Source of the DNA: Empedobacter brevis NBRC 14943 = ATCC 43319 | GTDB taxonomy: Bacteria > Bacteroidota > Bacteroidia > Flavobacteriales > Weeksellaceae | Length of the DNA: 64,000 nt | Direction: 5' to 3' | NCBI RefSeq assembly: GCF_000382425.1 | Contig: NZ_KB908306.1 | Span: forward strand, 19,603-83,602 | Part shown: in pieces, positions 3,249 to 63,397 of the stretch | Position numbering within the stretch: position 1 is the first letter of the stretch | Layout of the letters: each line of letters starts with the position of its first letter | The notes under the pieces: generated by a model | Databases searched by the model: none | The model's input: only the letters and a program-made list of their open reading frames with translations | What the model was told of the DNA's origin: nothing | Position numbers and translations under genes: made by a program

Positions 3249-4106
3249 ATGAAGAAATTTTTTCTGTTCATCTCATTATTTTCGTTTGTTCTTTCTTTGG
3301 CACAATCAAAATCCGGAGCGAAGAAAATGCCAGTTTATTTCGGGTGCGAAAGTTTGACAGAGAACAAAGAGTTAGTGTCTTGTCTAAATAAAAATCTGAA
3401 TCAGGATGTTCAGACGCAAATTGCGTTCTTTTCAAATATTGCAGATTATTTACATATCGAAACAGTACAATCAAAATTAGGTTTTACCATAACGAAAGAA
3501 GGGAATTTTTCAAATCTGACAACAGATGGAGCTAATCCGATTTTTAATAGTGTAGCGATGTCTAGTTTGGTTTTGTTGCAAAATAAAATGGAACGTGCCA
3601 AGTTAAAAATTGAACCTGCTAAAGATGAGCAGAATAAGGCAATGGATGTTAACCTAAACCTTCCTTTACGTTATGAAGCAGCTGAAAAAGACAATGACTT
3701 TGAAAATTTTCCTTCATCCAATCGTGTTTTATTTACATTGAAAACGGATGAAGAGACAATAGAAGTAAGAATTGACAAAGATTATAATATCAAGACGTAT
3801 GGGAAGACAGGAAATCGAGAATATTATTTGGGACGATTTTCTAATTTATTCGAAATGGCAAGTGTGGATCCATATGCAACAGCCTTCGAAGCAGCTTTTA
3901 AATCGGGTGTTATTGACATCACAAAAGGTAAAATAGAGGAGAAAGAATATAAACTTCAAATTAAACATTTCTTCGAAAATGATCCTTCTGTACAGGTTTT
4001 AATTACTGTTGTACGAGAAGAAAACGGAACTTGGGCCGAGTATTATGAATACAAAACCAAAAAAGAATTTAATCAATCAAAATTTGCACCCTTAACATAT
4101 AGATAA
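3249..4106 (+). CDS. Secreted protein of unknown function in the nad operon (paralog of 4966-5754)
   Basis: The 285-residue protein begins with a clear signal peptide (KKFFLFISLFSFVLSLAQS), so it is exported. After it comes YFGCESLTENKELVSCLN, a two-cysteine motif that recurs in its paralog two genes downstream and resembles the GCE...C segment seen in some flavobacterial TonB-like proteins. No enzymatic motif is visible. It directly abuts nadB and overlaps nadC (TAATG), so it is translated with NAD synthesis genes even though its product is extracytoplasmic. Function unknown. Confidence 0.8.
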   Translation: MKKFFLFISLFSFVLSLAQSKSGAKKMPVYFGCESLTENKELVSCLNKNLNQDVQTQIAFFSNIADYLHIETVQSKLGFTITKEGNFSNLTTDGANPIFNSVAMSSLVLLQNKMERAKLKIEPAKDEQNKAMDVNLNLPLRYEAAEKDNDFENFPSSNRVLFTLKTDEETIEVRIDKDYNIKTYGKTGNREYYLGRFSNLFEMASVDPYATAFEAAFKSGVIDITKGKIEEKEYKLQIKHFFENDPSVQVLITVVREENGTWAEYYEYKTKKEFNQSKFAPLTYR

Positions 4107-17318: not shown

Positions 17319-17324
17319 TACTTG

Positions 17325-17406
17325 TACGGGCGGAGAGACTCGAACTCTCACACCTTGCGGCACTAGATCCTAAGTCTAGCGTGTCTACCAATTCCACCAC
17401 GCCCGC
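17325..17406 (-). tRNA. tRNA-Leu (anticodon UAG)
   Basis: On the minus strand the gene starts GCGGGCGTGGTGG and ends CTCTCCGCCCGTA. The acceptor stem is 7 bp with a terminal G-U pair. The D-loop has GGTAGACAC. The anticodon arm CTAGA-CTTAGGA-TCTAG gives anticodon TAG. A long variable arm (TGCCGCAAGGTGT), typical of leucine tRNAs, and the GTTCGAGTC T-loop follow. CCA is not encoded. It reads leucine CUN codons. Confidence 0.95.
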
Positions 17407-27208: not shown

Positions 27209-27303
27209 GAAATCTTTTTGTCCACAGGATTTAGGAGTGTCTGAAAAAATTATTGGAACAAAGTGGAGGTCATTTTTTATAGAAACCCAAAAAGATTTTT
27301 TTG
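27209..27303. repeat. 95-bp direct repeat, copy A
   Basis: The segment AATCTTTTTGTCC...GGATTTAGGAGTGT...AAATTATTGGAACAAAGT...GAAACCCAAAAAGATTTTT recurs at 33539-33632 in the same orientation with only a handful of changes. The two copies bracket the DUF/PRTRC/SSB block. Confidence 0.85.
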
Positions 27304-33538: not shown

Positions 33539-33632
33539 GAAATCTTTTTGTCCGAAGGATTTAGGAGTGTCCGAAAAAATTATTGGAACAAAGTGGAGAG
33601 AATTTTTTTAGAAACCCAAAAAGATTTTTTTG
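33539..33632. repeat. 95-bp direct repeat, copy B
   Basis: Matches copy A (27209-27303), including TTAGGAGTGT and AAATTATTGGAACAAAGT and the GAAACCCAAAAAGATTTTT end. It is preceded by an inverted repeat (CCCGATTCG...CGAATCGGG) absent from copy A. Confidence 0.85.
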
Positions 33633-33894: not shown

Positions 33895-34602
33895 TTATTT
33901 GAGCGTTTTCTGTGTTTTGGCTTTTTCAAAAGACTCGTATATAATCCCTTTTATCGCTTTCTCTATTTCTAAAAGACCTTTATCTTCATTAATGTCGATT
34001 CCACACACCTTACTACCATTCGATTTTGAGTGGATTGACAGATAATAAATTCCTCCAATTAACAATGCCAATCTCGCTCTTATATTTACATCGGTATGTT
34101 CAAAATAATGATCGATTAAACTCAATAATTGCTCTCCCGTTTCTTCTCTTTTATCCGCAAGAACTCGTAACATTTTCTTGTTTTCTCCAAGTTCCCAATG
34201 AATAATTTTTTGCCAAATTTTATCTTTTAAAATGATTTCAAGCTGAGCTTGCAATACATCATTTGTTTCACTTGCACCGGCGTTTTCTGCATTTGAAAAT
34301 ATTCTTTGCATCATTGGTTTAGCTCCTGATTTCCAAAAATCTTTTTGCATTATATATTCTTCAACCAGGTTATCTACTCCTCCAAAATATGTCCAAACCA
34401 ATTGCTTATTCACTCCTGCTGCAAGGGCTATATTAGGTGCTGTAAGTCCGGCATATCCTTTTTTTTGAATCACCTTTCCAACAGAAGCAACCATTCGTGC
34501 CATTGTTCTTTCTTTATCTCTTAAAGGGCCTTGTGATGGCTTTCTGGGTTTTCTCTTGGGTTTGCCTGAATCACTTGAATTAATAGTATTGTCTTGAACC
34601 AT
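33895..34602 (-). CDS. TetR family transcriptional regulator (RiPP locus)
   Basis: A 235-residue regulator. After a basic, disordered start (KPKRKPRKPSQGPLRDKERT) comes a TetR HTH at about residues 38-80 (VIQKKGYAGLTAPNIALAAGVNKQLVWTYFGG) and a helical ligand-binding domain. It is a close paralog of the regulator at 62699-63397, with the same GGVDNL/EYI/KDFW, IIHWELGE and GIDINE segments. It follows the oxoamine synthase by 32 nt, so it may sense that enzyme's product. Confidence 0.88.
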   Translation of the reverse strand: MVQDNTINSSDSGKPKRKPRKPSQGPLRDKERTMARMVASVGKVIQKKGYAGLTAPNIALAAGVNKQLVWTYFGGVDNLVEEYIMQKDFWKSGAKPMMQRIFSNAENAGASETNDVLQAQLEIILKDKIWQKIIHWELGENKKMLRVLADKREETGEQLLSLIDHYFEHTDVNIRARLALLIGGIYYLSIHSKSNGSKVCGIDINEDKGLLEIEKAIKGIIYESFEKAKTQKTLK

Positions 34603-34634
34603 TTTATTATTTGTTTCGAATATTCTACATATAC

Positions 34635-35891
34635 TTACGCAAGTTCTAACTTTTTGCTAATATAATCAAATACATTTAAGGCTTTGTCTAATTGGTCTTT
34701 TGTATGGGTTGCCATCAGGCTCATCCGAATTCGGGAATCTTTAAGACTTACCGCAGGATACATAATAGGATTTGTGTAGATACCATTTTCAAGTAAAAGT
34801 TTTGCCGTTTCAGAATTTTTATACGTATCTCCAATTTTTACAGGAATAATAGCCGATTCTGTCGCTCCAATAGTTAAACCAATGTTTTGTAATCCTTGTT
34901 TAAAGTAGTTAATGTTATCCCATAATTGTTTTTGCCAATGCGGTTCTTCATCTATAAGATCAATCGCTTTAGCGACTCCTAAAACTGTAGCGGGCGCAGA
35001 TGCGGAAAAAGCGTATTGTCTTGATTGATATTTTAAATAGGTAACAATGCTTGGATCTGCAACCAAATAACCTCCTACATTTCCGAATGTTTTACTAAAA
35101 GTCCCGGTTATAATATCCACTTTATCCAATACATTGAAAAGCTCCATCGCTCCACGACCTGTTTTTCCAAGTACGCCAATTCCATGTGCGTCATCAACTA
35201 GAATTAACCCTCCATAGTGATGTGTTATCTCAATGATTTCTTTTAATTTAGCAATATCTCCGTCTTGTGAATAAACTCCATCAATAATAACTATTTTTGT
35301 TTGATATTCATCTTGAGATCTTGATAAAATACGCTCCAAAGATTCGGTATCATTATGGAGGAAACGTTTTGAGTTTGTCCCTGTAAGGCCTTCATATATG
35401 CTGGCATGAACTGCCATATCTACAATCGCAATATCTTGTTTTTTTAATAAACCAAGTAAAGAAGCACTGTTTGCTGTATAACCTGTAGTATAAATAATGG
35501 TTGAACCTTCAGGTTTTTTGAAAAATTTCGAAATTTTATCTTCAACTTGTTTATGGTAATCAAAATAGCCGCCGATTAATGGAGAAGCCCCGGCACCGGT
35601 TCCAAATTGATCAATCGCCGACTTAACAACTTCTTTAATTTTTGGATGTTGAGTAAAGCCTAAATAGTCATTACAAACAAAACTGATATACGAACCGTTT
35701 TTGATATGTTTCGTTTCGGCAAGTTCTACTTCCGAATTACAACCTGAATCAGCTTTTAAAAGATAATTCAGAAATCCATTATTATCTAAATAGTCAAGAT
35801 AGCCTTGAAAGGCTTCTGCTCTTTGAAAAATATTCATTCCTTGAATGTCTTCAAAATCTTTTGTACTTGTTTTTGTGTAATCGAATTTCAT
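34635..35891 (-). CDS. Alpha-oxoamine synthase family PLP enzyme
   Basis: A 418-residue class I/II-fold aminotransferase-like enzyme of the KBL/BioF/serine palmitoyltransferase/CqsA group, which condenses an amino acid with an acyl-CoA. Evidence: VCNDYLGFTQHPKI, FGTGAGASPLIGGYFDYHKQVEDKI, IYTTGYTANSA, LVDDAHGIGVLGKTGRGA, and the PLP lysine in TGTFSKTFGNVGGY. There are no biotin or sphingolipid genes nearby. It is transcribed with a TetR gene, downstream of the exporter of the RiPP cluster. It may make a lipid or a signal; the substrates cannot be read from the sequence. Confidence 0.85.
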   Translation of the reverse strand: MKFDYTKTSTKDFEDIQGMNIFQRAEAFQGYLDYLDNNGFLNYLLKADSGCNSEVELAETKHIKNGSYISFVCNDYLGFTQHPKIKEVVKSAIDQFGTGAGASPLIGGYFDYHKQVEDKISKFFKKPEGSTIIYTTGYTANSASLLGLLKKQDIAIVDMAVHASIYEGLTGTNSKRFLHNDTESLERILSRSQDEYQTKIVIIDGVYSQDGDIAKLKEIIEITHHYGGLILVDDAHGIGVLGKTGRGAMELFNVLDKVDIITGTFSKTFGNVGGYLVADPSIVTYLKYQSRQYAFSASAPATVLGVAKAIDLIDEEPHWQKQLWDNINYFKQGLQNIGLTIGATESAIIPVKIGDTYKNSETAKLLLENGIYTNPIMYPAVSLKDSRIRMSLMATHTKDQLDKALNVFDYISKKLELA

Positions 35892-36024
35892 AGTAGGTAA
35901 TTTTAAATTGTGTGTATACGCGATACCATAACTGATAGTGTTAAAATAGTTAAGTAGTTCGCTTAATATTTTGAGATTAAATATTAAAAAAGAATGAAAT
36001 TGAGGAGATGTAAATCAGGTGATA

Positions 36025-38205
36025 TTAATTACCAAGCTCCAATTGGTTTTTCACTAAATTGTAATATTCGCTTTTAATTGATACTAATTTTTCATGATTG
36101 CCTTGTTCGACAACTTTCCCATGTTTAAGCACTATAATCTGATCGGCATTTTTAACAGTACTCAAACGGTGCGCTATAATCACTACTGTTTTTCCTTTAA
36201 AAAAGGATTGTAAATTATCATGAATAATTTTTTCATTTTCTGCGTCCAAAGCCGAAGTGGCTTCGTCAAAAAACAAATATTCCGGGTTTTTGTAGACTGC
36301 TCGTGCAATCAAAATTCTTTGCTTTTGTCCTCCCGAAATACCTATACCTGCTTCACCTATTTTTGTACTATATCCTAAAGGAAGCCCCGCAATAAACATA
36401 TGGATATTTGCCATCTTAGCAGCATATTCTAATTTTTTCCAATCTATATTCAGATCTCCTGTTGCAATATTTCGTTCGATTGTATCAGAAAAAATAAACC
36501 CTTCCTGTGAAACCACACCATATTTTTTTCGCCAACTATCAAAACTATATCTCTCAAACGGGGTATTATTAATTGTAATACCACCTTCAACAGGTTCGTA
36601 GTATTTTAGAAGAAGTTTCATCAAGGTTGTTTTTCCACTACCACTTTGACCTACAATTGCCGTTATTTTTCCATTTTGAATTGTTAAATCAATATTTTTT
36701 AAAACATAAGGTGATCTGGGGCCTTCGTACTGGAAACTTATATCAGATAGCATTATGGGAGCATTATTAAAATCGCAGGCAAGCCCAGTTGTATTTGACA
36801 AGTCTTTATTGTGTATTTCGTTTAAACGATTAAAACTGAGTCTTGCATCAAGAGCAGTTCTGAAAAAAGAAATCAGTTGATTTATAGGAGAATTCATCTG
36901 ACCTATAATATATGAGATGCTCAGCATATTCCCTAAAGAAAGAGCGCCGCTAATAACACTTTTGGCTACAATAAACGTTACTATAATGTTTTTTAAGTTA
37001 TTTATCAGGTTAAAACCGTTAAGTTGAAACTGGTCAACATTCAAGACTTTAAGATTAGTTGTATAAAGGTGCTCCTGAATTTCCTTCCATTTATTTTTTT
37101 TGTATTCTTCAAAGCTATTTAACTGTATTTCTTCAATACCATTAATAAGTTCATATGTATTGGATTGATCTTTAGCTTGCAAATCAAATCTTTTGTAATC
37201 CAGTATCTTTCGCTGCCGCTGAAAGAAAAGTGCCCATCCAACAGAAATTACTGTAAGTATCAGGTACACAAGTAAAATAAAAAGGTCATAATACGCAAGA
37301 ACTAAGAAGAAAACTGAAAATGTTACCAGCGAAAAGACGGTCAGCAGGGCATTTGATGTAATAAATACTTCAATTCGTTTATGATCTTCAATCCTCTGGA
37401 TTAAATCACCTGTTCTTTTCGAATCAAAATATTTTAGAGGCATAACCATGAGCTTAGATAAAAAATCGGAAAGAATATTGATGTTTATACGTGTTCCGAT
37501 ATGCAGAAAAAACCTGTTTCTGAAGATTTCAATAACCGTACTTCCTATAAATAAGGTAATCTGGAAAATAACAATCAATTGGAGAATTCCAAGGTCTTTG
37601 TTCTGAATTCCAGCATCTACCATATATTGTGTTAGAAAAGGAAGTACTAAGGTAATACAACTTCCTATAATCAGTCCTGCGAATATTTTTAAAATATCCG
37701 GTCTGAAAGGTTTTAAATAGTTCAGAAGAAACCTGTAATCATTCCGGTGCTCAGGGATTGTATTTTCATAAAATAAAGGAGTAGGCTGGAGAACCAAACA
37801 TACTCCTTTATTAATACCTGAAGTATTCCAGTTGCTAAGAAAATCTTTTTCATTAAGTTTAATATAACCATGTGCCGGGTCTGCAACATAAAAGAAATTC
37901 TTTCCGAACCTTTGTTGAATTTTATACAGTACAACGAAATGGGCTTGATTCCAATGTAATATACAAGGAAGAGAGATTTCGAATAAACCTTGAAAAGTTA
38001 GCTTCAGTGCTGTACTGTTAAAACCAAGTTCCTCCGCACATTGCGATATCCCTAATAAACTCACGCCATTTCTTGTCAGGTAACATTTCTCTCGTATGTA
38101 CGAAAGGTCATATTTTTTACCAAAATGGTTTGAAATCATCGTAAGGCACGAAGGGCCACAATCCATTTCATCAAGTTGATAGACTAACTTTATTTTCTTT
38201 TTCAA
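36025..38205 (-). CDS. C39 peptidase-containing ABC exporter (PCAT)
   Basis: A 726-residue inner-membrane exporter that removes double-glycine leaders and pumps the core peptide out. The N-terminal C39 peptidase has the catalytic Cys16 in DEMDCGPSC, the His in HWNQAHFVVLY and the Asp in VADPAHG. The transmembrane domain covers about residues 160-440. The ATPase has GQSGSGKTTL (Walker A), ISGGQKQRILIARA (signature) and YLFFDEATSALD (Walker B). The start overlaps the rSAM gene by 35 nt, which couples maturation and export. Confidence 0.95.
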   Translation of the reverse strand: MKKKIKLVYQLDEMDCGPSCLTMISNHFGKKYDLSYIREKCYLTRNGVSLLGISQCAEELGFNSTALKLTFQGLFEISLPCILHWNQAHFVVLYKIQQRFGKNFFYVADPAHGYIKLNEKDFLSNWNTSGINKGVCLVLQPTPLFYENTIPEHRNDYRFLLNYLKPFRPDILKIFAGLIIGSCITLVLPFLTQYMVDAGIQNKDLGILQLIVIFQITLFIGSTVIEIFRNRFFLHIGTRININILSDFLSKLMVMPLKYFDSKRTGDLIQRIEDHKRIEVFITSNALLTVFSLVTFSVFFLVLAYYDLFILLVYLILTVISVGWALFFQRQRKILDYKRFDLQAKDQSNTYELINGIEEIQLNSFEEYKKNKWKEIQEHLYTTNLKVLNVDQFQLNGFNLINNLKNIIVTFIVAKSVISGALSLGNMLSISYIIGQMNSPINQLISFFRTALDARLSFNRLNEIHNKDLSNTTGLACDFNNAPIMLSDISFQYEGPRSPYVLKNIDLTIQNGKITAIVGQSGSGKTTLMKLLLKYYEPVEGGITINNTPFERYSFDSWRKKYGVVSQEGFIFSDTIERNIATGDLNIDWKKLEYAAKMANIHMFIAGLPLGYSTKIGEAGIGISGGQKQRILIARAVYKNPEYLFFDEATSALDAENEKIIHDNLQSFFKGKTVVIIAHRLSTVKNADQIIVLKHGKVVEQGNHEKLVSIKSEYYNLVKNQLELGN

Positions 38206-39547
38206 AATCCTTTCTTCGCTTTTTTATATAATAATCCAATAACAGCTTGTCCTTATAATTGAATTTAAAACTAGGACAGGCCGGCGTACCTTCAAACCAG
38301 GATTTTGGGCAGCCTCCTCCGCAGACAGGTAGATGGTTACAGGTTTTACACCAGGTAGAACCAGACTCTAACGTATTATCCCAATCTCGCAGTGTTGCAT
38401 TTTTATTATAGGTTTCAGCAGGTTTGAACAGGTTTCCAATAAGGCTGTCGCCGGCTTTATAGGTGTCGGAGTACGGAAATTCCCAACAGGCATAAATATT
38501 TCCAAAGGCATCCCAAACCTCACTGTCTTCCATATCCACCATACAAACCGAAAATTTTCTTGTAGGCAGTATTTCCACAGAGATGTTATATTCGTAACAT
38601 TTAAATAACCAGTCTATTTCTAATTGGGCAAAGAAGTTTTTATCGAGTCCATCCTTACCAGCATCATTACCGCCAAAATCTACTATTGGTGCAAAATAAA
38701 CAGAAACTTTATGAGATATACCACAGTCTTTTATTTGTTCAATAAGACCATCGACAAACTGATAATTCGTCTTATCAATATTAACCCGAATACTGATTCT
38801 ACAATTATGCTTATCATATGTATCGGTTTTAACCACTTCAACAATATTGTTCATAATAATATCAAAAGTAGGTTCGCCTGTTTTAGTAAACCGTCTTTGA
38901 TCGTGACTTTCAGCGGTACCGTCCAGGGTTATCTGATAATTGGTTACACGGCAAACTTCTACCAAATCTTTGAACAATTTTGGTTTTAGGCTTAATCCGT
39001 TAGTTATCATATCGGAAATGTATCCCATATTTTTTGATTCACAAAGTTCAATCAGTCGTTGCGATGTTTTTTTAATGGAAGAATAGCCTGTTAGCGGTTC
39101 ACCTCCATACCATGTAACTGCCAAACCTTCATACAAACCCTCTTTTTGATTTAGTAAAAACTGTATCCTTTCCTCGTATTTATTAATTACTTCGTCTGTA
39201 GCATAATCCTTTGTGTGATTTTGACCGCAATAGTGACAGCCGAGCTGGCAGTTTGCAGAGGGTTGTATAGTCATTGAAAGAAAATTGGATTTTGCCCTCA
39301 TCTCTTTGTTTAAGGACGTAACAAAATCAAACTCGTTTTGCTCGTTTGGTATAATAAATTCTTTTTCCTCGAGTGTACGCAATAGTTCCGGTTCAACTTC
39401 ACTGAACTGATTGACAATAAGTTTTTCATATATGCGCTCGTCTATCATAATTGAAGTAGCTGTTCTTGTAGAGAATATTATTCTTTTATTTTCTAAACCA
39501 ACCTCGCTTAAATTATCTGTAGATAAATGGTAATTTGAAAATTTCAT
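38171..39547 (-). CDS. Radical SAM/SPASM peptide maturase
   Basis: About 458 residues; the ATG at 39547 (MKFSNYHLS) is used because the frame extends upstream only through a TTG. NCQLGCHYCGQNH gives the Cx3Cx2C motif that binds the SAM-cleaving 4Fe-4S cluster. The C-terminal SPASM domain has WEFPYSDTYKAG, CKTCNHLPVCGGGCPKSW and a late C-P-S-F motif that ligate auxiliary clusters. Such enzymes build thioether or C-C crosslinks in RiPP precursors. It starts 20 nt after precursor A and matches what would be expected of the GG-Bacteroidales type maturases. Confidence 0.93.
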   Translation of the reverse strand: MKFSNYHLSTDNLSEVGLENKRIIFSTRTATSIMIDERIYEKLIVNQFSEVEPELLRTLEEKEFIIPNEQNEFDFVTSLNKEMRAKSNFLSMTIQPSANCQLGCHYCGQNHTKDYATDEVINKYEERIQFLLNQKEGLYEGLAVTWYGGEPLTGYSSIKKTSQRLIELCESKNMGYISDMITNGLSLKPKLFKDLVEVCRVTNYQITLDGTAESHDQRRFTKTGEPTFDIIMNNIVEVVKTDTYDKHNCRISIRVNIDKTNYQFVDGLIEQIKDCGISHKVSVYFAPIVDFGGNDAGKDGLDKNFFAQLEIDWLFKCYEYNISVEILPTRKFSVCMVDMEDSEVWDAFGNIYACWEFPYSDTYKAGDSLIGNLFKPAETYNKNATLRDWDNTLESGSTWCKTCNHLPVCGGGCPKSWFEGTPACPSFKFNYKDKLLLDYYIKKRRKDFEKENKVSLST

Positions 39548-39566
39548 AAGCAAATCGTTTTACATT

Positions 39567-39785
39567 TTATGGATTGATTTCAAATTCTTCATTAGCAACA
39601 GACTTCGTATAAGTGCCACAGTTAGAATCTTTGAAAACGCCACAGTCTCCACTGAAAACGCCACATGTTTTTAGGTTTCCGCATCCTCCGAGCAGTTGGG
39701 AAGATTCATGGTCAGAAATAACTTCAAATCTCTGTTCTGTTCCTTTATTTTTTGCTAAAAGCAATCTTAATTTTGATTTATACAT
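39567..39785 (-). CDS. RiPP precursor peptide A (double-glycine leader, 4-Cys core)
   Basis: A 72-residue precursor. The leader (1-34) has FEVISDHESSQLLGG, a double-glycine processing site at 33-34. The 38-residue core has cysteines at 35, 41, 48 and 56 (CGNLKTCGVFSGDCGVFK... CGTY) and an acidic tail (ANEEFEINP). It lies between precursor B and the maturase gene and is predicted to be crosslinked by the radical SAM enzyme and cleaved and exported by the C39 ABC protein. A matching core and identical leader geometry in precursor B argue that this is a real gene. Confidence 0.88.
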   Translation of the reverse strand: MYKSKLRLLLAKNKGTEQRFEVISDHESSQLLGGCGNLKTCGVFSGDCGVFKDSNCGTYTKSVANEEFEINP

Positions 39786-39811
39786 AATCTGAAATTTAAT
39801 AGTTAAAAAAA

Positions 39812-39901
39812 GGTTATCTAAAAGAAATCAGGAATGCCAATATTTCACTTTAAAGAAAATAAAGGGTAATGATTTTACCTCAGAAGAACTTTTAGATAAC
39901 C
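39812..39901 (-). promoter_or_regulatory. Inverted repeat between the two precursor genes (possible attenuator)
   Basis: GGTTATCTAAAAG (39812-39824) and CTTTTAGATAACC (39889-39901) are a perfect 13-bp inverted repeat 64 nt apart. On the transcribed minus strand the 3' arm is followed by a T run (39804-39811). The structure could terminate part of the transcripts after precursor B or protect its 3' end. Confidence 0.6.
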
Positions 39902-39909
39902 GGTTAATT

Positions 39910-40119
39910 TTAAGGTGTAACCTCAATGCTAGACTCTACTTCTTTAGCGTATTGTCCACAAGAACCAAGAATTGTACAAGACCCTGTGTATTGACTACAC
40001 TTTTTCAGGTTTCCACAACCACCTACCAAAGCCGATGCTTCGTTGTCTGAGATAACTTCAAAACCTCTTTTTTCAAAGTTTTCTCCCATTTGCATGTTTT
40101 TGAATTTGTTCTTAAACAT
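39910..40119 (-). CDS. RiPP precursor peptide B (double-glycine leader, 4-Cys core)
   Basis: A 69-residue precursor, first of the pair in the direction of transcription. The leader ends FEVISDNEASALVGG (GG at 33-34, as in precursor A). The core has cysteines at 35, 41, 48 and 54 (CGNLKKCSQYTGSCTILGSCGQY) and an acidic tail (EVESSIEVTP). Leader and CGNLK are conserved while the rest of the core varies, which is typical of paralogous RiPP substrates. The start is 108 nt after the outer-membrane protein stop, so read-through from that gene is possible. Confidence 0.88.
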   Translation of the reverse strand: MFKNKFKNMQMGENFEKRGFEVISDNEASALVGGCGNLKKCSQYTGSCTILGSCGQYAKEVESSIEVTP

Positions 40120-40227
40120 AATTTTAAAGATTAAGAATTAAAAAATACTACATCAACCGTGCAGCTTTCGGTATTTAAGTGTCATTTTCCAAGTATTGCG
40201 CACTACAAGGACTCTGATACAATAAAT

Positions 40228-42633
40228 CTAATTATTTGTCGCTCTGTCTTTTTCTTCAGAATTACCTGTTGTATTTTGTTTTGCCCTTATTTTAGAATTA
40301 CCAAACCGGTAACTTACTGACAAGCTAAAATTTGGGCCATATTCAAAATTGGAACGTCTGATATTAACACTGTTAATTGTTTCTGACCACCTTTGTTTGT
40401 TTGTTCCGAAAACATCTCTTACACTTAGGTTTGCAACAAGCTTCTTTTCAAAAAACATTTTCCGTACCCCTATATTGAGATTAAACACCTCCCTGTTCTT
40501 TGATATTCCGTAATAACTAGGAAAAGAATAAGCCAAATCTACATTGGCAAGAAACGTTTTGTTCTTATTCAGTATTAAAGCATTAGAAACTGAAATATCT
40601 GAACCAAATCCCTTCGTTATTTTGTTTGTATTTGGATTGTCTGATATGGTTTTAGAATAATAAATATCCAACATAAGAAAACTTTCCAGCCAATTATTCC
40701 GATAGGAAAAACTTTCACTGATTCCATAGTTATAGGTGGTGAAATAATTGAGCATAGTTGACTGTTGGTTAATGGATTGATCGTCAATAACAGTCAATAT
40801 AGTATAACCATCTGTTTCTTTCGAATAGTAAACGGAAGTATTAAAATTACCGGCGCTATGTCCCAATTCTATGTTATGTGAATAACTAGGCCGCAAAAAT
40901 GGATTACCTTCAAAATACGAAAAGGAATTATTATATATCCGGAACGGATTAAGCATAGCAAAACGAGGCCTGTTAATACGTTTGCCATAATTTAAAGAAA
41001 ATGTATGATCTTCATTCGCATTATAAACAATATAGGCTGTAGGAAAAAATTTTAGGTATGAATTTTTATCTGTTCTTTCAAGCGATTCTGAAGTACCTTC
41101 AGTTTGGGTAGATTCCATTCGTACTCCGAGCTGAAGTTCCCATTTATTATCATTGAATGACTTTTTACCCGACAGGTACAATGCTTGTATTGCCTCAGAA
41201 TATTTAAAATTATCATTACTCCCAACTGCAACAGGCAATTCCCCATCCTGATTTTCTCCGTAATATATCTTACTGATTGTTTTCGTATTTGATAATCTCG
41301 CGCCATAACTTAGATCGATATCAAATAATTTTTGTTCGACATCAGCTCTCAGTGTATAATTATTAATTCTTTGTTTTCCATTATTGCTAAGAATGCTTTC
41401 ACCTGTCTGATTATTAACAGGAAGTTCAAAATATTTGGTAATGAAACTTTGGTCATTTCGGTAATCGAAATTAAAATAATCTGCACCAATTGTCAATTTA
41501 CCGCCAATAGTGTCCAGTTTCAATAGAGAATTGAAGCTTAACGAATGGTTTTTATTTTTTTTACTGTTTCTTAAATCCGTAAGAATTCTGTTTGCATTGA
41601 TATCATTCTTATCAGTTAGCAGCACCTGGTTTTGTTGTTCAATTCCCGGCTTGCTTTCACTTCCGTAATATTCTATACTCGAACTGAATTTACTGGAAAA
41701 CTCATAATTTAAATTTAGTTTTCCGCTTATCGAATTATTTTTTCGAAGTGTGGAAGTCGTGCCAGACCAAAACTGATCAGGATAATCAATTTCTTCTGTA
41801 GCAAGATTGAAACTATCACCTCTTGAATACCCAAGACTTGAAGAAATGCCAAACTTTCCTTTATTATAATTGAAAGAACCCCCTGAAGAAAATACATCCG
41901 CTTTTTCATTATAACTATATGAACTTCGTAAAGATGCACTCCAATAATCTACTTTAACCTGTTTTAACTTAATATTGATCAAACCACTATTTCCCTCCGC
42001 ACTATACTTTGCAGGCGGATTAGTTATAACTTCTATCAATTGTATGTCTTCTGTTTTTATGGTTTTAAGATAGTCCGATAATTCACTGCCATTTAATAAT
42101 ATCATTTTGTCATTTACCATAACTGAAACAGAGCTTTTTCCAATAATCCCTACATTTTCATTTAAAATTTTTACTCTCGGTGTTATTTTAAGGGCATCTA
42201 TTGCTGTTCCTCCGCTAGCAGAAATTGAGTTTTCAACATTAAAAACTAATCGATCAACTTTACGTTCTATTAATTTTTTTCTTGCTGAAATAGTTAATTC
42301 TTCAAGGATTACCGACTCTTCAATTTCAATAATCCCTAAATCAATATCTTGATGAAGATCAATCGTTTTATTTAAGAATTCTTGTCCAAAGCTTTCAATT
42401 AAAAGTGTATATTTTCCTGAATTTGCTTTTATGTTGAAAATACCTAGGCTATCAGTATAAGTTTGAGTTATAAGAGAATCATTTTTTAATAATGAAGCAG
42501 TTGCAAACTCTACAGATTTCATTTGTTTATCAACTAACTTACCTTTTACTACATAATGTTGTGCATTTGCAAAGTTTATATTCGAAAAGAAAAGTAGTAG
42601 TATAAATAAAAGTATGGTAGAAGACTTTTTCAT
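40228..42633 (-). CDS. Outer-membrane beta-barrel family protein (TonB-receptor-like)
   Basis: An 801-residue exported protein with signal peptide ending NFANAQ. A carboxypeptidase-regulatory-like beta domain lies at about residues 28-110 (VVKGKLVDKQMKSVEFATASLLKND). A plug-like segment (ALKITPRVKILNENVGIIGKSSVSVMVNDKMI... VITNPPAKYSAEGNSGLINIKL) and a barrel ending in a Phe-rich strand follow. This is the flavobacterial outer membrane beta-barrel family. It is immediately upstream of the RiPP genes and may move the peptide across, or be its receptor or immunity factor. Confidence 0.85.
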   Translation of the reverse strand: MKKSSTILLFILLLFFSNINFANAQHYVVKGKLVDKQMKSVEFATASLLKNDSLITQTYTDSLGIFNIKANSGKYTLLIESFGQEFLNKTIDLHQDIDLGIIEIEESVILEELTISARKKLIERKVDRLVFNVENSISASGGTAIDALKITPRVKILNENVGIIGKSSVSVMVNDKMILLNGSELSDYLKTIKTEDIQLIEVITNPPAKYSAEGNSGLINIKLKQVKVDYWSASLRSSYSYNEKADVFSSGGSFNYNKGKFGISSSLGYSRGDSFNLATEEIDYPDQFWSGTTSTLRKNNSISGKLNLNYEFSSKFSSSIEYYGSESKPGIEQQNQVLLTDKNDINANRILTDLRNSKKNKNHSLSFNSLLKLDTIGGKLTIGADYFNFDYRNDQSFITKYFELPVNNQTGESILSNNGKQRINNYTLRADVEQKLFDIDLSYGARLSNTKTISKIYYGENQDGELPVAVGSNDNFKYSEAIQALYLSGKKSFNDNKWELQLGVRMESTQTEGTSESLERTDKNSYLKFFPTAYIVYNANEDHTFSLNYGKRINRPRFAMLNPFRIYNNSFSYFEGNPFLRPSYSHNIELGHSAGNFNTSVYYSKETDGYTILTVIDDQSINQQSTMLNYFTTYNYGISESFSYRNNWLESFLMLDIYYSKTISDNPNTNKITKGFGSDISVSNALILNKNKTFLANVDLAYSFPSYYGISKNREVFNLNIGVRKMFFEKKLVANLSVRDVFGTNKQRWSETINSVNIRRSNFEYGPNFSLSVSYRFGNSKIRAKQNTTGNSEEKDRATNN

Positions 42634-42910
42634 AAATTATGATTTAACTCTCTAACCAAAAAAACAAAATAAATTTTAATTATGCAATTAGATAATTAAA
42701 TAATGTTAGTATTTTTCATAAAATTAAATAAGTCTAATTTAAAATATGATTTTATTATGTTTATTATTAATAAATTACATTTTATAAAATTAATAGGAAT
42801 TATAATAATATTATTTTCTAAATAAAGAATAAACAACATGATATTAACTTTTTTATTTTTAATTTGCAATATGATTCCTTCTATACATTAACACTATATT
42901 AAATTAAAAC

Positions 42911-44619
42911 ATGAAAGTAAACAACCTTTTTTTGGGGATAGTATTATCAGCTACAACCTTTATTTCCTGTAATCAGGATGATATTTCTGAAAGCGAAAAT
43001 ATTGAACAAACGAATATCCAAAGTTCAGCACGTATTGCAGAAGGAATAATCCCTTTTACCGTTGAAAATGTAAATAAAGCATTGCCAAGAGTTCTATCTT
43101 ACTACAGAGAACATCGCCCCCAAGTAGCACAGCGTTTCGCAAACTACCAAGTAGAGCCTACCCATATTTATTATAAATTTACACCTGCTGATAGCTTGCA
43201 ATATTCTTTATTAATGGAAAAAGATGAAGAATTACAACTTACAGTTGACCCGTTTGAATTTACGCCCAAAGAACGTACTGAAGATCCGGGAGAAAATGAA
43301 ATACCAAGCTTTTACGCTGTGGTAAGTAACCAAATGTAACCCACGAAACACTTGCCTTGCTTCATTTTACAGACGAAGATAAACTGGAAGACGTTTCTCA
43401 AAATTATGACGAGATAGAATTTAAGCAAAACCTAATGTATGAAACTCGTAAAATTGCAGGACATTTAGATGAAGAGGAATTGGCAGAAGGCTATATGAAT
43501 TACCGTGAAGGCATTGAAGAAGGCAATTCGCAAGATGGAAAAGTAGTCGCAAAAGGGCTGTTTGGTAAAAAATGGAGACCTTCTGGAAATATACGTGTAG
43601 AAGATGATTGGTTGTCTGAAAGGAGAGGTACAGCTGTCTATTTACCAGTTTTGAGAGCAGAAGTCAATGTTTTGAAATGGGGGTGGCTTCGTGTTGAAAA
43701 TGGTTCGACAGATGTTAACGGAAACTTTTCTACTGGTACCACATATACCAAACACGTACATTATAATGTTAAGTTTGCAGACTTTGTGAAGGTGAAAGTA
43801 CGTCCAGGTAACTTTTTTGATATAGCAAATTGGAAATCAGATAGCCATAAACGTAGAGCCTTAAATGTTGTTTTTACTAAAAACACAAAACACCAGTTTT
43901 ACGCTTTGATCAATAATGCCGCTCATGACTATTTCAATAGAGTCGTTCCTACTTATGGTATTTATAATCCCGTATCAATTGATATATCTGGACATTATAA
44001 TGATCACAAATCAAACTATTGGTTTGGCTGGATTCCGTTTAGAAGTGAAGTTAAGATTGGTGGGAAAAATAAAGATGGTTCTCGTAAAAAAAGTGATGAA
44101 GTTTACGCTACAGTAATTCATGAAATCACTCATAAAGGACATTATAAAATGGATGGAACAGCATTTAATAGTATTGCAGGTAGTGCAGCAAAGCATAAAC
44201 TGTTTCTAAGAGAATCTTGGGCAGAGTGCGTAGAAACTATAGCTACAAATGATAAATATACACAATATTTTAATCAATATGGTTTAGGTAACTATCTTTC
44301 TTCGCCTATATGGACGTGGGGGAATAACCTTATAAGAACATGGAACGGAGGCAGACAATATACGACTCTTTCTGATATGGATGAATATAGCTCATTGATG
44401 ATAGATTTGATAGATAATTACAATCAACATAACTTTAATATTATTTATCCTGAGGATCAGGTAAGTGGTTATAGTCTTAAACAAATTCAGACTGCCTTAA
44501 ATGGTAATCATAGTGTTGATTCTTTCTATGATAAACTGTTCAACCTCTATACTAACAGTACGAAAGTACACCTAAATACTCTTAAATCACATGCAAACAC
44601 AGTTGTCAATAATTTATAA
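42911..44619 (+). pseudogene. Lipoprotein zinc metalloprotease, frameshifted
   Basis: Two frames make up one protein: 42911-43339 (lipobox ISC, N-terminal part) and a downstream frame to 44619. The first frame reads SNQM-stop at 43334-43339. The other frame, open from 43330, reads NVTHETLALLHFTDEDK, joining smoothly if one or two bases are added or lost near 43330. The C-terminal part has the zinc motif HEITH (44119-44133), followed about 25 residues later by ESWAECVE with a likely third ligand. It could be a true frameshift mutation, a sequencing error or phase variation. The second part can start at TTG 43357. It is divergent from the RiPP locus. Confidence 0.75.
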
Positions 44620-45106
44620 AACAGGCATAGCATTGCCTTTAGCGTGTATAACCTTAACATCCTGCGACCCGGGAACAGGCGGAGAAACGCCACGGTACAC
44701 CTATGAGGTTGCTATAAAAAATCAATCAGCAAGTCCAGTTTCAATCTATGGATACAACACCGCAGATCCCTATGGAACAAAACTAGAAATGGCTGAACTT
44801 AAGTACAGCTTATTGGTAGGAGCAGCATCTCTCAGTAGCATAAGTACCGTAACAATACCCAAACCTCTTGGAGATCCTGCTTTCGGGTTTATGTATCCGG
44901 GATTTGAGGATGTCGTGGTAGATTCAATTGTTCTGAAATTTTCGGATTCCAGAGGTTATTATAGCAATCTTAATGGCAATACCGTTTGGCTTTCAGGAAA
45001 GTCAACGTTATGGAACGTAAAAGAAAATGATATTGTTCAGCAAGACGGAGTTCTCATCTATCCCATTACCCAGCAAGATTACGAAAACGCGCATGTGCTA
45101 CCGTAG
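44591..45106 (+). CDS. Small lipoprotein of unknown function
   Basis: 171 residues with the lipobox LTSC at about residues 22-25, followed by DPGTGGETP and a beta-rich domain (YEVAIKNQSASPVSIYGYNTA, VVVDSIVLKFSDSRGYY). The 29-nt overlap with the end of the metalloprotease frame shows translational coupling. A terminator follows. It is likely a partner of the protease at the cell envelope, but the sequence gives no reaction. Confidence 0.75.
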   Translation: MQTQLSIIYKTGIALPLACITLTSCDPGTGGETPRYTYEVAIKNQSASPVSIYGYNTADPYGTKLEMAELKYSLLVGAASLSSISTVTIPKPLGDPAFGFMYPGFEDVVVDSIVLKFSDSRGYYSNLNGNTVWLSGKSTLWNVKENDIVQQDGVLIYPITQQDYENAHVLP

Positions 45107-45120
45107 AATTTAATGAAATA

Positions 45121-45165
45121 AAATAGGTTGCAAAAATAAATTTCTGCAACCTATTTAACTTTTTC
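45121..45165 (+). terminator. Rho-independent terminator after the lipoprotein gene
   Basis: AAATAGGTTGCA and TGCAACCTATTT form a 12-bp stem followed by a T-rich run. Confidence 0.8.
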
Positions 45166-45294
45166 TAAATCTTGTTAATCTAAACTTTAGATGGTCAATT
45201 TTACAAGATTCTCCAATTATATACATTCATTTTAAGATGTGGCAACTGAATTTGTGTATGATCAATATAGCTAACCCTTCTAAATTAAACTGAT

Positions 45295-46077
45295 ATGTAT
45301 TTACTTACCATGATTGACAAAAAATTGGAACAAGCTATGCTCCATTTATCACAATTACCCCTTTTTCATCAGACGTATCATTATACTTCAGAGAACCAGC
45401 GAACCTATTTTACCCGGAAACTGATTTGTTTTTACCTCTCTTTTTTTCAAAGGTTGGAAATTCTACCGTCAGGTTTTGACTATTACAAAAGAAAAATAGT
45501 AAAAGACTGTGTGTTGGGAACAAGTGAGGAAATTGAACATGACCTTGTTTTGAAAAAAGCTCTTAAATGGGCGGAACTTAACATCAATTTACTGAATCCT
45601 GATAAACAACATCAAATTTTTCCCATCCATTTACATTTTTTCACAACATCTAGCGTCATTATTTTAAGCGGAATGGCTGAATTGGAAAATTCAGTATTGC
45701 GACTTAATATTCATGAGTTATCTATTCCAAGAAGGATTATAAAATTAACATCCGGCAAATTACACTATCTTAATGATTCTTTAGAAGTATACTGTTCGGA
45801 AAGACATAAAAACCTCCGGGATTTGGCAAGGCATTATAATAAAGATTACCAGCAATTTCAACAGGATTGCAAAAGTTATTTCAGAAGTACTTTTTATCAA
45901 TTCTATACAAAAGTTAAAATGATACATGCAGTGGATGATATTTTGTTCAGTAAAATGTGTTTTAAAGAAATCGCTGATAAGAACGGCTTTACAGATTATA
46001 ACAATATGTATAAGATATTCAATACAAAATACGATTTTCCGTTGGATAAAATTCCTCGATTTTTGTTTGAAGATTAA
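45295..46077 (+). CDS. AraC-like helix-turn-helix regulator
   Basis: A 260-residue protein. Its C-terminal 60 residues (KMIHAVDDILFSKMCFKEIADKNGFTDYNNMYKIFNTKYDFP) resemble the second HTH of AraC-type activators. The N-terminal two thirds have no recognised sensor domain. It precedes the MauE-like and DUF6520 genes in the same direction, 140 nt upstream of the former. This arrangement is commonly seen around such genes, so it probably controls them. Confidence 0.65.
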   Translation: MYLLTMIDKKLEQAMLHLSQLPLFHQTYHYTSENQRTYFTRKLICFYLSFFQRLEILPSGFDYYKRKIVKDCVLGTSEEIEHDLVLKKALKWAELNINLLNPDKQHQIFPIHLHFFTTSSVIILSGMAELENSVLRLNIHELSIPRRIIKLTSGKLHYLNDSLEVYCSERHKNLRDLARHYNKDYQQFQQDCKSYFRSTFYQFYTKVKMIHAVDDILFSKMCFKEIADKNGFTDYNNMYKIFNTKYDFPLDKIPRFLFED

Positions 46078-46217
46078 GCGTTTATACTTTTAGCAATGTT
46101 TTTCATACTTTTAACCATAATTTACCGACTTATCACCTTGTAATACTTACTTTTAGCAATTTTACAACTGCTTAAATATTCAGAATTTTGGTTAACCAAT
46201 TAATCGAAACTGAACCA

Positions 46218-47687
46218 ATGAAAAGCATCCGTCATATTGTTCCAATCATCATCAGTTATTTATTTATACTGCTTTTTGTCTATGCCTCTCTAAGTAAAGC
46301 AAGAGAGTTCGGAGATTTCCAACTACAGCTGGGGCAATCTCCTTTATTGGGTGCGTTTGCCGTACCGGTTTCCTATGGCGTAATTAGTCTTGAGCTTTTC
46401 ATTAGTCTTTTACTGGCTATTGACAGAGTACGTAAAATAGGATTATATTTAGCTTATATATTAATGGTGATGTTTACAGCTTATATTATCATCATCCTTC
46501 ATTTTACCTCTTTTACCCCTTGTTCCTGCGGAGGCGTTTTAGAATCATTAGGCTGGACGGAACATCTTATTTTCAATAGTGTATTTGTGCTATTGACTGG
46601 CTGGGCAATTGTTCTGATGGAAGATAAGCCGTTGAAAAAAGTAATTTTCCGCTTATTGCTGTTACTTTTATTGGGAACCTTTATCATAACAGCTATCTTT
46701 CTAAGTTCTGAAAACGAAATTAAACAAAACAATGCTTTTCAAAGAAAATACATTCCGCATGGGCTTGAAAAAGTTGGGGAATATACTTTGCCTTCGAACT
46801 CCTATTATATTGCGGGTATAGACGACAAAACCATTTATTTAGGAAATTATATGGCTCCTCTTTACCTAAAACTGATAGACATAGATCTGAAAACGGAAAA
46901 AGAAATACGGGTAGAAATTGAAAATACGGAACTCCCATACAAAAGAGTGAAAATGGTTGTAAAGCCTCCTTACTTTTTTCTTGGTGACGGTACTGTTCCT
47001 GTTCTATTCAGCGGAAATACGACGAGCTGGAAAGCGAAAACTTTTTCTCAAAACGATGCGTACTATATGCAATATGCAATCTTGGATTCACTGCACCTCG
47101 CCATCACAACTACCAGTACACAAACAAAAGCGAATACTTTGGGAGTTCTTCGTAAGAATAATGATTCTATTGAGGTTACTTTGAACAATACAATTCTGGA
47201 AAAACAAGTGGACGGGATGTTTGATACAGACGGAATCTTACTGGACAATTCACAGGGAAAAACAGTATATGTTTATTATTACCGGAATAGCTATGTAGTT
47301 GCCGATCATAAACTAAAACAAGAAATCACAGGTAAAACAATCGATACGATAAGTAAAGCTCAGATAGATGTAGCGTTCTACGAAAAGAAAGACCAGTATA
47401 AATTAGGTGGAAAAAGTACAATCGTCAACAAATATGCGACCACCTTTGGTGATTACCTGTTTATCAATAGTGACAGGTTAGGAAAATATGAGGAGGATGA
47501 AGTATTGAAATCTGCCGCAATTATAGACATGTACAATACCTCTAACAATACCTATTTACAAAGTTTTTATTTCTATCATCAACCCAATCAAAAATTGTTG
47601 GAATTGAAAACCTATAAAAACCTTCTGATTGGAATTGTAGATAATACGCTATGGGTATATACACTGGATAAAAAATATTATCAATAA
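46218..47687 (+). CDS. MauE/DoxX-like redox-associated membrane protein
   Basis: 489 residues with four to five transmembrane helices in the N-terminal 180 residues, then a large extracytoplasmic beta-rich domain. The PCSCGGVLESLGW loop after helix 3 is the MauE/DoxX-type Cys pair thought to pass electrons to periplasmic disulfide chemistry. The ATG at 46218 is chosen because it begins directly with the first membrane segment. It lies 76 nt upstream of a cysteine-containing DUF6520 mini-protein, a pairing common in Bacteroidota, so the protein may help oxidise or isomerise that peptide. Confidence 0.75.
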   Translation: MKSIRHIVPIIISYLFILLFVYASLSKAREFGDFQLQLGQSPLLGAFAVPVSYGVISLELFISLLLAIDRVRKIGLYLAYILMVMFTAYIIIILHFTSFTPCSCGGVLESLGWTEHLIFNSVFVLLTGWAIVLMEDKPLKKVIFRLLLLLLLGTFIITAIFLSSENEIKQNNAFQRKYIPHGLEKVGEYTLPSNSYYIAGIDDKTIYLGNYMAPLYLKLIDIDLKTEKEIRVEIENTELPYKRVKMVVKPPYFFLGDGTVPVLFSGNTTSWKAKTFSQNDAYYMQYAILDSLHLAITTTSTQTKANTLGVLRKNNDSIEVTLNNTILEKQVDGMFDTDGILLDNSQGKTVYVYYYRNSYVVADHKLKQEITGKTIDTISKAQIDVAFYEKKDQYKLGGKSTIVNKYATTFGDYLFINSDRLGKYEEDEVLKSAAIIDMYNTSNNTYLQSFYFYHQPNQKLLELKTYKNLLIGIVDNTLWVYTLDKKYYQ

Positions 47688-62698: not shown

Positions 62699-63397
62699 TT
62701 ATTTTTCAATCCCTGCTTTTTCATACAATTCAAAAACAGTATTTTGAATTTCCCTTTTTATCTGTTCTTTTCCTTCTTCTTCGTTAATGTCAATTCCGCA
62801 AAACAATCTGCCACTCGATTTTGCATGTAATGTAACGTAATATATTCCTCCTATAAGTATAGCCAACCGTGCTCTCAGATCCAAAGTTGTATGGGTAAAA
62901 TCGGGTAGTATTGCAGCAAATAACTGTTCACTTATTTCTTCTCTTTTATCGGCCACCTCACGTAGCACTTTCTTTTCCTCTCCTAATTCCCAATGGATAA
63001 TTTTTTGCAGTGCTTTGTCTTTGTATAACGTATCAAACTGGCTTTGTAATATATTTTCAATTTCCTTCTTGCCTATAGTTTCAGGATGCTTTAACAAATC
63101 ACCACTAATACTTTTCAACGCAGATTTCCAAAAATCTTTTTGGTGAATATATTCTTCAATCAGGTTGTCTACACCTCCGAAATATGTCCAAACCAGCTTT
63201 TTATCGACCCCAGCTGCCAATGCAATATTAGAAGCGGAAAGCCCCGGATACCCTTTCTTTTGAATAACCTTGCCAACGGCTGCTATCATTCTTGCCTTAG
63301 TACGAGATTTATCACGTAAACGACCTGATGCTTCTTTTCTTACTTTAGGAGGTGGTTGTGCTGTATTTTCAATTTCCGCTTTTTTCTTTCTTCCCAT
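62699..63397 (-). CDS. TetR family transcriptional regulator (second copy)
   Basis: 232 residues; a paralog of the regulator at 33895-34602. The basic start (SGRLRDKSRTKARM), the TetR HTH (VIQKKGYPGLSASNIALAAGVDKKLVWTYFGGVDNLIEEYI) and the C-terminal IIHWELGEEKKVLREVADKREE and CGIDINEEEGKEQ match closely. The two paralogs border separate gene clusters and may respond to related signals. It lies divergent from the gene at 63795. Confidence 0.85.
   Translation of the reverse strand: MGRKKKAEIENTAQPPPKVRKEASGRLRDKSRTKARMIAAVGKVIQKKGYPGLSASNIALAAGVDKKLVWTYFGGVDNLIEEYIHQKDFWKSALKSISGDLLKHPETIGKKEIENILQSQFDTLYKDKALQKIIHWELGEEKKVLREVADKREEISEQLFAAILPDFTHTTLDLRARLAILIGGIYYVTLHAKSSGRLFCGIDINEEEGKEQIKREIQNTVFELYEKAGIEK

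Follow-up and report, generated by a model that had tools for sequence, protein, structure and literature searches.

A 64,000-nucleotide stretch of the genome of Empedobacter brevis NBRC 14943 = ATCC 43319 (contig NZ_KB908306.1, positions 19,603 to 83,602; the whole stretch is referred to as the window) carries on its minus strand what is almost certainly a real and conserved cassette, of a known general kind, for making a ribosomally synthesized and post-translationally modified peptide (RiPP). The cassette occupies window positions 36025-42633 and is made up of an outer-membrane barrel, two precursor peptides with leaders ending in Gly-Gly (GG), a radical S-adenosylmethionine (SAM)/SPASM maturase and a C39 exporter. 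What sets it apart is the core of its precursors, a tandem of two units of the form C-x2-L-x2-C-x2-[Y/F/N], found in 27 of 27 precursors of the close clade. Two further genes, for an alpha-oxoamine synthase (AOS) family enzyme and a TetR-family regulator, follow the cassette and are not part of it; they form a separate pair that recurs beside genes of quite different kinds. The best overall explanation, to which we would give even chances, is that the repeat core would carry thioether rings, each linking a cysteine to the third residue after it, that the product would leave by the C39 exporter and that the AOS-TetR pair would serve as the switch.

The cassette and its conservation

The genes lie on one strand with short gaps, in the order barrel, precursor A, precursor B, maturase, exporter, AOS, TetR. 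The barrel gene (40228-42633), the first of the cassette, encodes an OMP_b-brl_3 protein (PF14905, 276 bits) whose N-terminus resembles CarbopepD_reg_2, under that model's cutoff. Precursors A (39910-40119) and B (39567-39785) each have a leader of 34 residues ending in GG. The 458-amino acid maturase (38171-39547) is followed by a peptidase-containing ATP-binding cassette (ABC) transporter, or PCAT (36025-38205; PF03412 with 119.9 bits, PF00664 and PF00005), which overlaps the maturase gene if its listed TTG start is taken. All of this agrees with the first-pass annotation of the sequence: the two precursor genes, with their leaders, shared CGNLK and cysteine positions, are exact in the open reading frames, and the radical SAM/SPASM protein, the ABC exporter with its Peptidase_C39, membrane and ATPase domains, and the upstream barrel are all recovered by domain models. 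The same annotation had the precursors processed by the logic of GG/C39 systems, which the content of the cassette supports: a GG-leader precursor adjoins a C39 exporter and a peptide-modifying enzyme, and by its genes the locus groups with the clusters for GG-leader/C39-exported RiPPs. The exporter is predicted to cut the precursors at GG and to export the product, which would then pass the outer membrane by way of the barrel.

The arrangement is kept among relatives. An ABC exporter comes after the maturase in 11 of the 12 other close loci that have at least 3 kb of downstream sequence. In 9 of 13 close loci and 14 of 22 wider ones, the 6 kb upstream of the maturase include a barrel homolog on the same strand. 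Of the 13 other loci at 54% or more maturase identity, 12 have precursors that repeat this leader and core pattern, which goes beyond chance, so that homologs keeping both the leader and the cysteines, on which the first-pass annotation had made its proposal depend, do exist.

The tandem-repeat core

Both cores begin with CGNLK. That of precursor A (CGNLKKCSQYTGSCTILGSCGQY..., cysteines at 35, 41, 48 and 54) is two C-x2-L-x2-C-x2-Y units; that of precursor B (CGNLKTCGVFSGDCGVFKDSNCGTY..., cysteines at 35, 41, 48 and 56) is likewise two units, the second of them two residues longer and with Phe replacing Leu. The core had been described as one of four cysteines; the cysteines stand, and it is more than that, a tandem repeat with conserved Leu and Y/F/N at fixed spacing. 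The close set behind this statement consists of GG-leader open reading frames beside the maturase in 14 loci, the window among them, whose maturases are at least 54% identical to the window's. Thirteen of these loci gave 26 distinct precursors (L048 yielded none, the precursors of L041 and L042 are identical, and P0004, 97% identical to precursor A, was not counted), and P0005 brings the number to 27. Three positions after the first cysteine of a unit the residue is Leu in 53 of 54 cases (27/27 after the first cysteine of the core, 26/27 after the third), the sole Phe being that of the window's precursor B; three positions after the second cysteine of a unit it is Y, F or N in all 54, with the same tally (Y 10, F 10, N 7) after the second and the fourth cysteine. 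The spacing of the cysteines is 6-7-6 in 22 of the 27, and the second unit is longer by two residues in four.

Farther out the rule loosens. In a wider set of 50 cores from 30 more distant loci, Y, F or N stands at +3 of 88 of 163 cysteines (the background frequency is 0.14), with at least one such residue in 45 of the 50 cores; shuffling gives a mean of 26.4, and 0 of 2000 shuffles reach 88. Among the 13 offsets tested, +3 is the top one for Y/F/N, followed by -2 (43/156) and +4 (41/154). The filter for candidate precursors came up empty at 21 of 57 loci and returned mere repeats at three more. Of the 21, three (the window, L039 and L043) went into the close set. Seven cores (L049, L050, L052, L055, L058, L067, L069) were added by hand to the wider set, which omits L066, a chance open reading frame, and the rest of these loci, L019, L028, L029 and L033 among them.

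The residue at +3 of the second cysteine is aromatic in the window's own branch and Asn in the sister branch, which has Cloacibacterium, Epilithonimonas, Chryseobacterium tagetis and two Flavobacterium species. With the labels aromatic, Asn and other assigned by hand from the cores, a tree of 39 maturases calls for three changes of the Asn state, the same number that its well-supported branches force; this history may be one gain and two losses. Some distant precursors have cores of a single unit, such as CGLLLTCGNY in Janthinobacterium (L059) and CGSFTCGLF in another proteobacterium (L072). The simplest reading is that the enzyme acts on the unit rather than on the whole core and that the unit was duplicated in the window's clade, and it is quite probable that the repeat unit is the site of modification. 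The proteobacterial members L059, L060 and L072 (Janthinobacterium, Massilia and a metagenome-assembled genome (MAG)) all have single-unit cores, and in L059 and L060 the precursors lie downstream of the maturase.

No NCBIfam model matches either precursor at E<=1. This includes TIGR04149, the GG-Bacteroidales precursor family that the first-pass annotation had suggested searching. A search of the E. brevis genome returns the two copies and one match, at E 0.3, that contains a stop; among 5.8 billion proteins precursor A finds two relatives, with 97% and 67% identity, in a search that requires shared exact words (the loci themselves hold many more). Other precursor types occur close by in the family. 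At L028 (2871-4007) and L029 (871-1416), maturases of 39-40% identity are followed by several near-identical peptides that lack GG and have a CC-TGSD core, a different precursor type with the same enzyme family. GG peptides with poly-glutamine cores are seen at L150 (17118-17273) and L048 (18241-18429); the one at L150 adjoins a C39-type exporter and a barrel, with no modification enzyme recognised.

The maturase and the chemistry proposed for it

By its kinship the maturase is a SPASM peptide maturase. It matches the radical SAM model PF04055 with 40 bits (cutoff 29.5) and the generic SPASM domain TIGR04085 with 47.3 bits (cutoff 27), the latter being the sole model passed among the 25 of 42 NCBIfam matches listed. 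The first-pass annotation had looked to peptide-maturase models for support: the generic one provides it, and the specific ones, among those same listed matches, do not, the maturase scoring far under every cutoff (the best full-length match listed, TIGR04463, has 229 bits against a cutoff of 525). A named NCBIfam RiPP family was accordingly rejected as its identity, within the matches listed. An alignment of the window maturase with 35 relatives at 61-76% identity has as invariant cysteines C100, C104 and C107 (the CX3CX2C motif), seven in the SPASM region (C335, C354, C400, C403, C409, C413 and C424), and also C317. The predicted structure (pLDDT 83.8) starts with three strands and then three helices, as do leader-binding domains (a likeness judged by eye), so that the N-terminus is predicted to be a domain of that sort.

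Relatives of the enzyme number 1333 at E<=1e-10, the best 120 of which all have at least 41% identity. Matches at E<=1e-20 occur in 55 of 320 genomes of the family, the weaker ones being other radical SAM proteins at 24-31% identity; of 395 genomes taken from across the phylum, 5 match at E<=1e-60 (E. brevis itself is included in both counts). Placement in named genomes confirmed 128 occurrences, of which 80 loci were kept; the nearest are in Flavobacterium, Mucilaginibacter, Cecembia and a Crocinitomix MAG, and a branch near 40% identity is found in Janthinobacterium and Massilia. A plasmid search with the maturase gave 66 records, all under 60% identity and the best listed at 34%, and no near-identical copy of the locus was seen in the plasmid collection.

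What the enzyme might do to its repeat can be put as a tentative proposal, rather short of an even chance: it would close short thioether rings, joining each cysteine to a non-alpha carbon of the residue three positions on. The guess is made because the residues found there, Leu with its tertiary gamma C-H, Tyr and Phe with their benzylic beta C-H and Asn with its amide-adjacent beta C-H, share a weakened side-chain C-H bond; kinship in sequence and in predicted fold to the thioether-forming enzyme CteB is consistent with it. We know of no RiPP with an i-to-i+3 thioether ring. The repeat core offers, at the least, a short substrate rule, C-x2-L-x2-C-x2-[Y/F/N], for an uncharacterised clade of maturases, and the proposal predicts from it a compact new ring.

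The AOS-TetR pair

The AOS gene (34635-35891, minus strand) begins 133 bases past the exporter and encodes a pyridoxal phosphate (PLP) enzyme; the TetR gene (33895-34602, minus strand; PF00440, 28.9 bits against a cutoff of 24) comes after it. The enzyme stays below the cutoffs for serine palmitoyltransferase (SPT) of CFB bacteria (NF047600, 356 bits of 640), glycine C-acetyltransferase (NF005394, 342 of 460) and alpha-hydroxyketone autoinducer synthase (NF005526, 185.6 of 428). The first-pass annotation had singled out the pairing of this core with an oxoamine synthase as unusual, and that partnership does not hold up: no AOS or TetR homolog is detected (tblastn, E<=1e-5) in any of 36 relative loci, L037-L072, 33 of which extend 3 kb or more downstream. 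On the strength of these 36 loci we reject the idea that AOS belongs regularly to RiPPs of this kind.

The pair turns up instead beside other things: two other radical SAM clusters, one of them in the same genome, a C39/GG-peptide cluster, and genes with the MACPF domain on two plasmids. The second copy in E. brevis (L147; AOS 73% and TetR 62% identical) has a layout like that of the window, with a barrel, a GG precursor, a different maturase (23% identity), a C39-type exporter, a gene of 117 amino acids, AOS and TetR. L148 has a barrel, a precursor, a maturase of 40% identity, a gene of 325 amino acids and an exporter, and then AOS-TetR; upstream of this intact cluster (1535-3317) are another precursor and maturase, accompanied by no more than a short remnant of an exporter. 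In L150, where no radical SAM gene is seen, AOS and TetR are in opposite orientation beside the exporter, barrel and poly-Gln GG peptide. Among the genomes searched, C39 clusters thus stand beside four of the six most similar AOS loci (69-100% identity), the window, L147, L148 and L150; none was found around the other two, L149 and L163. TetR accompanies AOS in 14 of 16 sampled neighbourhoods (it is missing in L163 and L166), and in a Chryseobacterium-type genome, G138 (L159), the two make up one in-frame open frame of 648 codons. L164 has the two separated by a transposase-like gene (10205-11212) that by eye resembles IS30.

The distribution of AOS is patchy: at E<=1e-100 it is in 146 of 316 genomes of the family and 8 of 395 of the phylum, and it is in 41 of 395 genomes of the order and, at E<=1e-88, 3 of 176 of the class, these samples overlapping one another. 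Eleven Bacteroides and Phocaeicola plasmid records have an AOS at 42-43% identity; TetR is next to it in all three of the plasmids examined, and two of these also have a MACPF gene, at distances of 2.7 and 3.7 kb (the MACPF domains were confirmed for L160). Seven phage records have one at 32-38% identity, two of them annotated as Kbl and five unannotated.

A palindrome at related promoters

Of 10 promoters of the close AOS-TetR loci, 7 have a palindrome, TWTCYYT-N4-RRRGAW, in the 150 bp upstream: those of barrel and AOS in L147 and again in L148, of AOS in L149 and L150, and of a second TetR gene in the window. Dinucleotide shuffles of the ten promoters yield a mean of 0.023 palindromes and a maximum of 1. 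It occurs at 0 of 13 other AOS promoters, a group that includes L163 (AOS 73% identical, no TetR seen) and leaves out L153, L159 and L162, and at 0 of 23 promoters of barrel genes in loci without AOS (21 upstream of the maturase, those of L055 and L070 downstream; L041 and L042 resemble copies of each other). In L148 its only two matches in 20 kb are the barrel and AOS promoters. A degenerate copy with two mismatches (42648-42664, minus strand) is at -31 of the window's barrel gene, close to the -34 and -35 of the sites in L148 and L147, and is a weak candidate TetR site. Two earlier versions of the pattern, with a spacer of five bases, were noisy or nearly empty and were given up for the four-base version. 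We infer that the palindrome is what TetR would bind.

The second TetR of the window (62699-63397) is of the same subfamily; no AOS is beside it in the window, and its palindrome match is 36 bp upstream. DNA repeats D1 and D3 have 71-75% identity to the first TetR.

Weighing the explanations

The explanation given at the outset, with +3 rings and an AOS-TetR switch, has a number of observations to contend with, all of which weigh against it. Five of the 50 wider cores have no Y, F or N at +3, and among the uncounted peptides the nine GG-less, CC-containing ones of L028 and L029, and one each in L019 and L033, break the +3 rule. Since the precursors share ancestry, the shuffle counts (0 of 2000) overstate independence. 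The palindrome was first spotted by eye and tuned on six of its seven carriers, so that L150 alone is out of sample; it is absent from the promoters of the window's barrel (which has only the two-mismatch copy), the window's AOS and the L150 barrel; and it also occurs away from the tested promoters, three times in L147, four in L150 and two in the window, and 12 across 256 kb of control loci low in GC. No RiPP genes are seen around 12 less similar chromosomal AOS copies (L151-L159 and L164-L166, L159 being only 8 kb long and L153 seen in part). Finally, the four cysteines could instead be engaged in disulfides, sactionine bonds or longer rings.

This last point is the substance of the strongest alternative, which concerns the chemistry. 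The bonds that the maturase makes may be classical sactionine links at the alpha-carbon or links of the CX3D-like ranthipeptide kind, or the cysteines may pair as disulfides, with Y, F or N at +3 serving for recognition only; like the +3 ring itself, we hold this to be possible and below an even chance. The title of the CteB structure speaks of a thioether-forming enzyme, PapB joins Cys to the beta-carbon of Asp in CX3D (PMC9413430), and the wider family has a share of its Y/F/N at +4, as tallied above. On the other hand, the alignment of the 27 close-clade precursors does not show an Asp or Glu conserved at +4, and in every one of them the residue at +3 of the second cysteine is Y, F or N in both units.

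As for AOS-TetR, we lean, by a little, to a regulatory rather than a tailoring role: AOS would make a small-molecule ligand for TetR, and the pair would switch such clusters on through that molecule. It looks like a portable regulator of competition genes. A rather unlikely alternative is that the pair is a mobile passenger with a lipid or cofactor function of its own, hitchhiking beside antagonism genes on mobile elements. The window's copy does adjoin PRTRC genes; other copies are on plasmids (8 of the 11 mentioned above typed as conjugative), and that of L151 is by phage-like genes (by eye); copies of the Chryseobacterium type are found by themselves in the vicinity of dnaX-, aroG- and ndk-like genes (names by eye). 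Hitchhiking, however, does not predict what is seen in L147 and L148, where the promoters of barrel and AOS alike have the same palindrome. That AOS is a tailoring enzyme, condensing an amino acid or the peptide with acyl-CoA and so giving the RiPP an acyl or aminoketone group, while TetR represses only its own operon, is more unlikely still: AOS does follow the exporter in the window, L147 and L148, each time on the exporter's strand, and its closest characterised relatives are SPT, Kbl and BioF, but the relative loci do without it, and the pair keeps company with unrelated cores, with a C39 cluster that has no radical SAM gene, with MACPF genes on plasmids and with many loci that have no visible peptide genes.

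The regulatory reading of AOS-TetR can be extended, to a point at which we consider it unlikely as a whole, into a portable signalling cassette of the Bacteroidota, in which AOS would make a diffusible autoinducer of the aminoketone type and TetR would leave the palindrome on binding it. Such a cassette would be fitted to unrelated antagonism genes (radical SAM RiPPs, a C39 cluster without radical SAM, MACPF plasmids, YcaO RiPPs) and would, in the window, drive a RiPP made of a chain of i-to-i+3 thioether rings. To our knowledge few small-molecule signalling systems have been defined in the Bacteroidota. Should AOS-TetR be a pair of signal and receptor, it would give the competition genes of this phylum a transferable switch.

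Other features of the locus and its surroundings

The stretch between the precursors (39796-39912, minus strand) folds as RNA into a 13-bp stem (GGTTATCTAAAAG / CTTTTAGATAACC) followed by T7, with a minimum free energy of -21.4 kcal/mol (z -2.95; none of 200 shuffled sequences does as well), possibly an attenuator or an RNA-stability element. A scan for sigma-70 promoters and terminators gave no clear excess over shuffles. Divergent from the cassette, on the plus strand (42911-47687), are a lipoprotein-like open reading frame, a 420-amino acid protein with the motif HEITH (HExxH-like, by eye), an AraC-type regulator and a protein with a MauE domain. On the other side, a 93-nucleotide repeat, 84% identical between its copies (27209-27301 and 33539-33631), flanks PRTRC genes (ThiF, protein B, protein E) and a gene for single-stranded DNA-binding protein, with the second copy just past the TetR gene. 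The sole tRNA gene found in the window, for tRNA-Leu (17324-17406), lies about 1.8 kb before genes with helix-turn-helix and Toprim domains, which may mark the start of a mobile region.

Comparison with known systems

CteB, one of the SCIFF maturases (TIGR03974), is the nearest solved relative of the window maturase; against the SCIFF model the latter scores 59.3 of the 425 bits required. The profile match to CteB (a thioether-forming RiPP maturase, PDB 5WGG) has an E of 1.6e-10, and CteB is also the nearest to the predicted fold (Foldseek E 7.9e-16 over 468 columns), with an identity of only 17%. CqsA, which makes the autoinducer CAI-1, is paired with a membrane histidine-kinase receptor and not with a TetR. 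Its kind belong to the same PLP enzyme family as AOS (113 bits to 2WK8) and provide the analogy for an AOS that would make a signal.

The ranthipeptides of the PapB/freyrasin type (NF047865) are like the window's system in having a SPASM enzyme that works on repeated short motifs of Cys-Xn-acceptor form, and PapB accepts 0-6 intervening residues (both PMC9413430). The motifs differ, CX3D/E for PapB as against C-x2-L and C-x2-[Y/F/N] here, and the window maturase has 86.4 bits to the PapB model, whose cutoff is 340. In a literature search that covered few subscription journals, none of the titles and abstract openings listed dealt with the maturase clade, with an AOS associated with RiPPs or with AOS-TetR next to BSAP genes, and no description of the repeat-core subfamily was found; the accessible part of PMC9062424 describes no cluster matching the window's core.

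The closest known systems are the Bacteroidales RiPP biosynthetic gene clusters BGC1-9 (PMC10352776), notably BGC7 and the BGC8 of Porphyromonas gulae. As described there, they share with the window a GG-leader precursor, a C39 PCAT, an outer-membrane protein and a radical SAM/SPASM enzyme, and no membrane fusion protein was found. BGC7 and BGC8 differ in having a YcaO enzyme in addition and other precursors, and the tandem C-x2-L-x2-C-x2-[Y/F/N] core does not figure in the parts of that paper covered here. They also hold a single gene that encodes an aminotransferase domain and then a homeodomain-like domain, for which a role as transcription factor has been proposed by analogy with GabR (PMC10352776); judged by that description of its domains, the gene can be read as a fusion of AOS with TetR.

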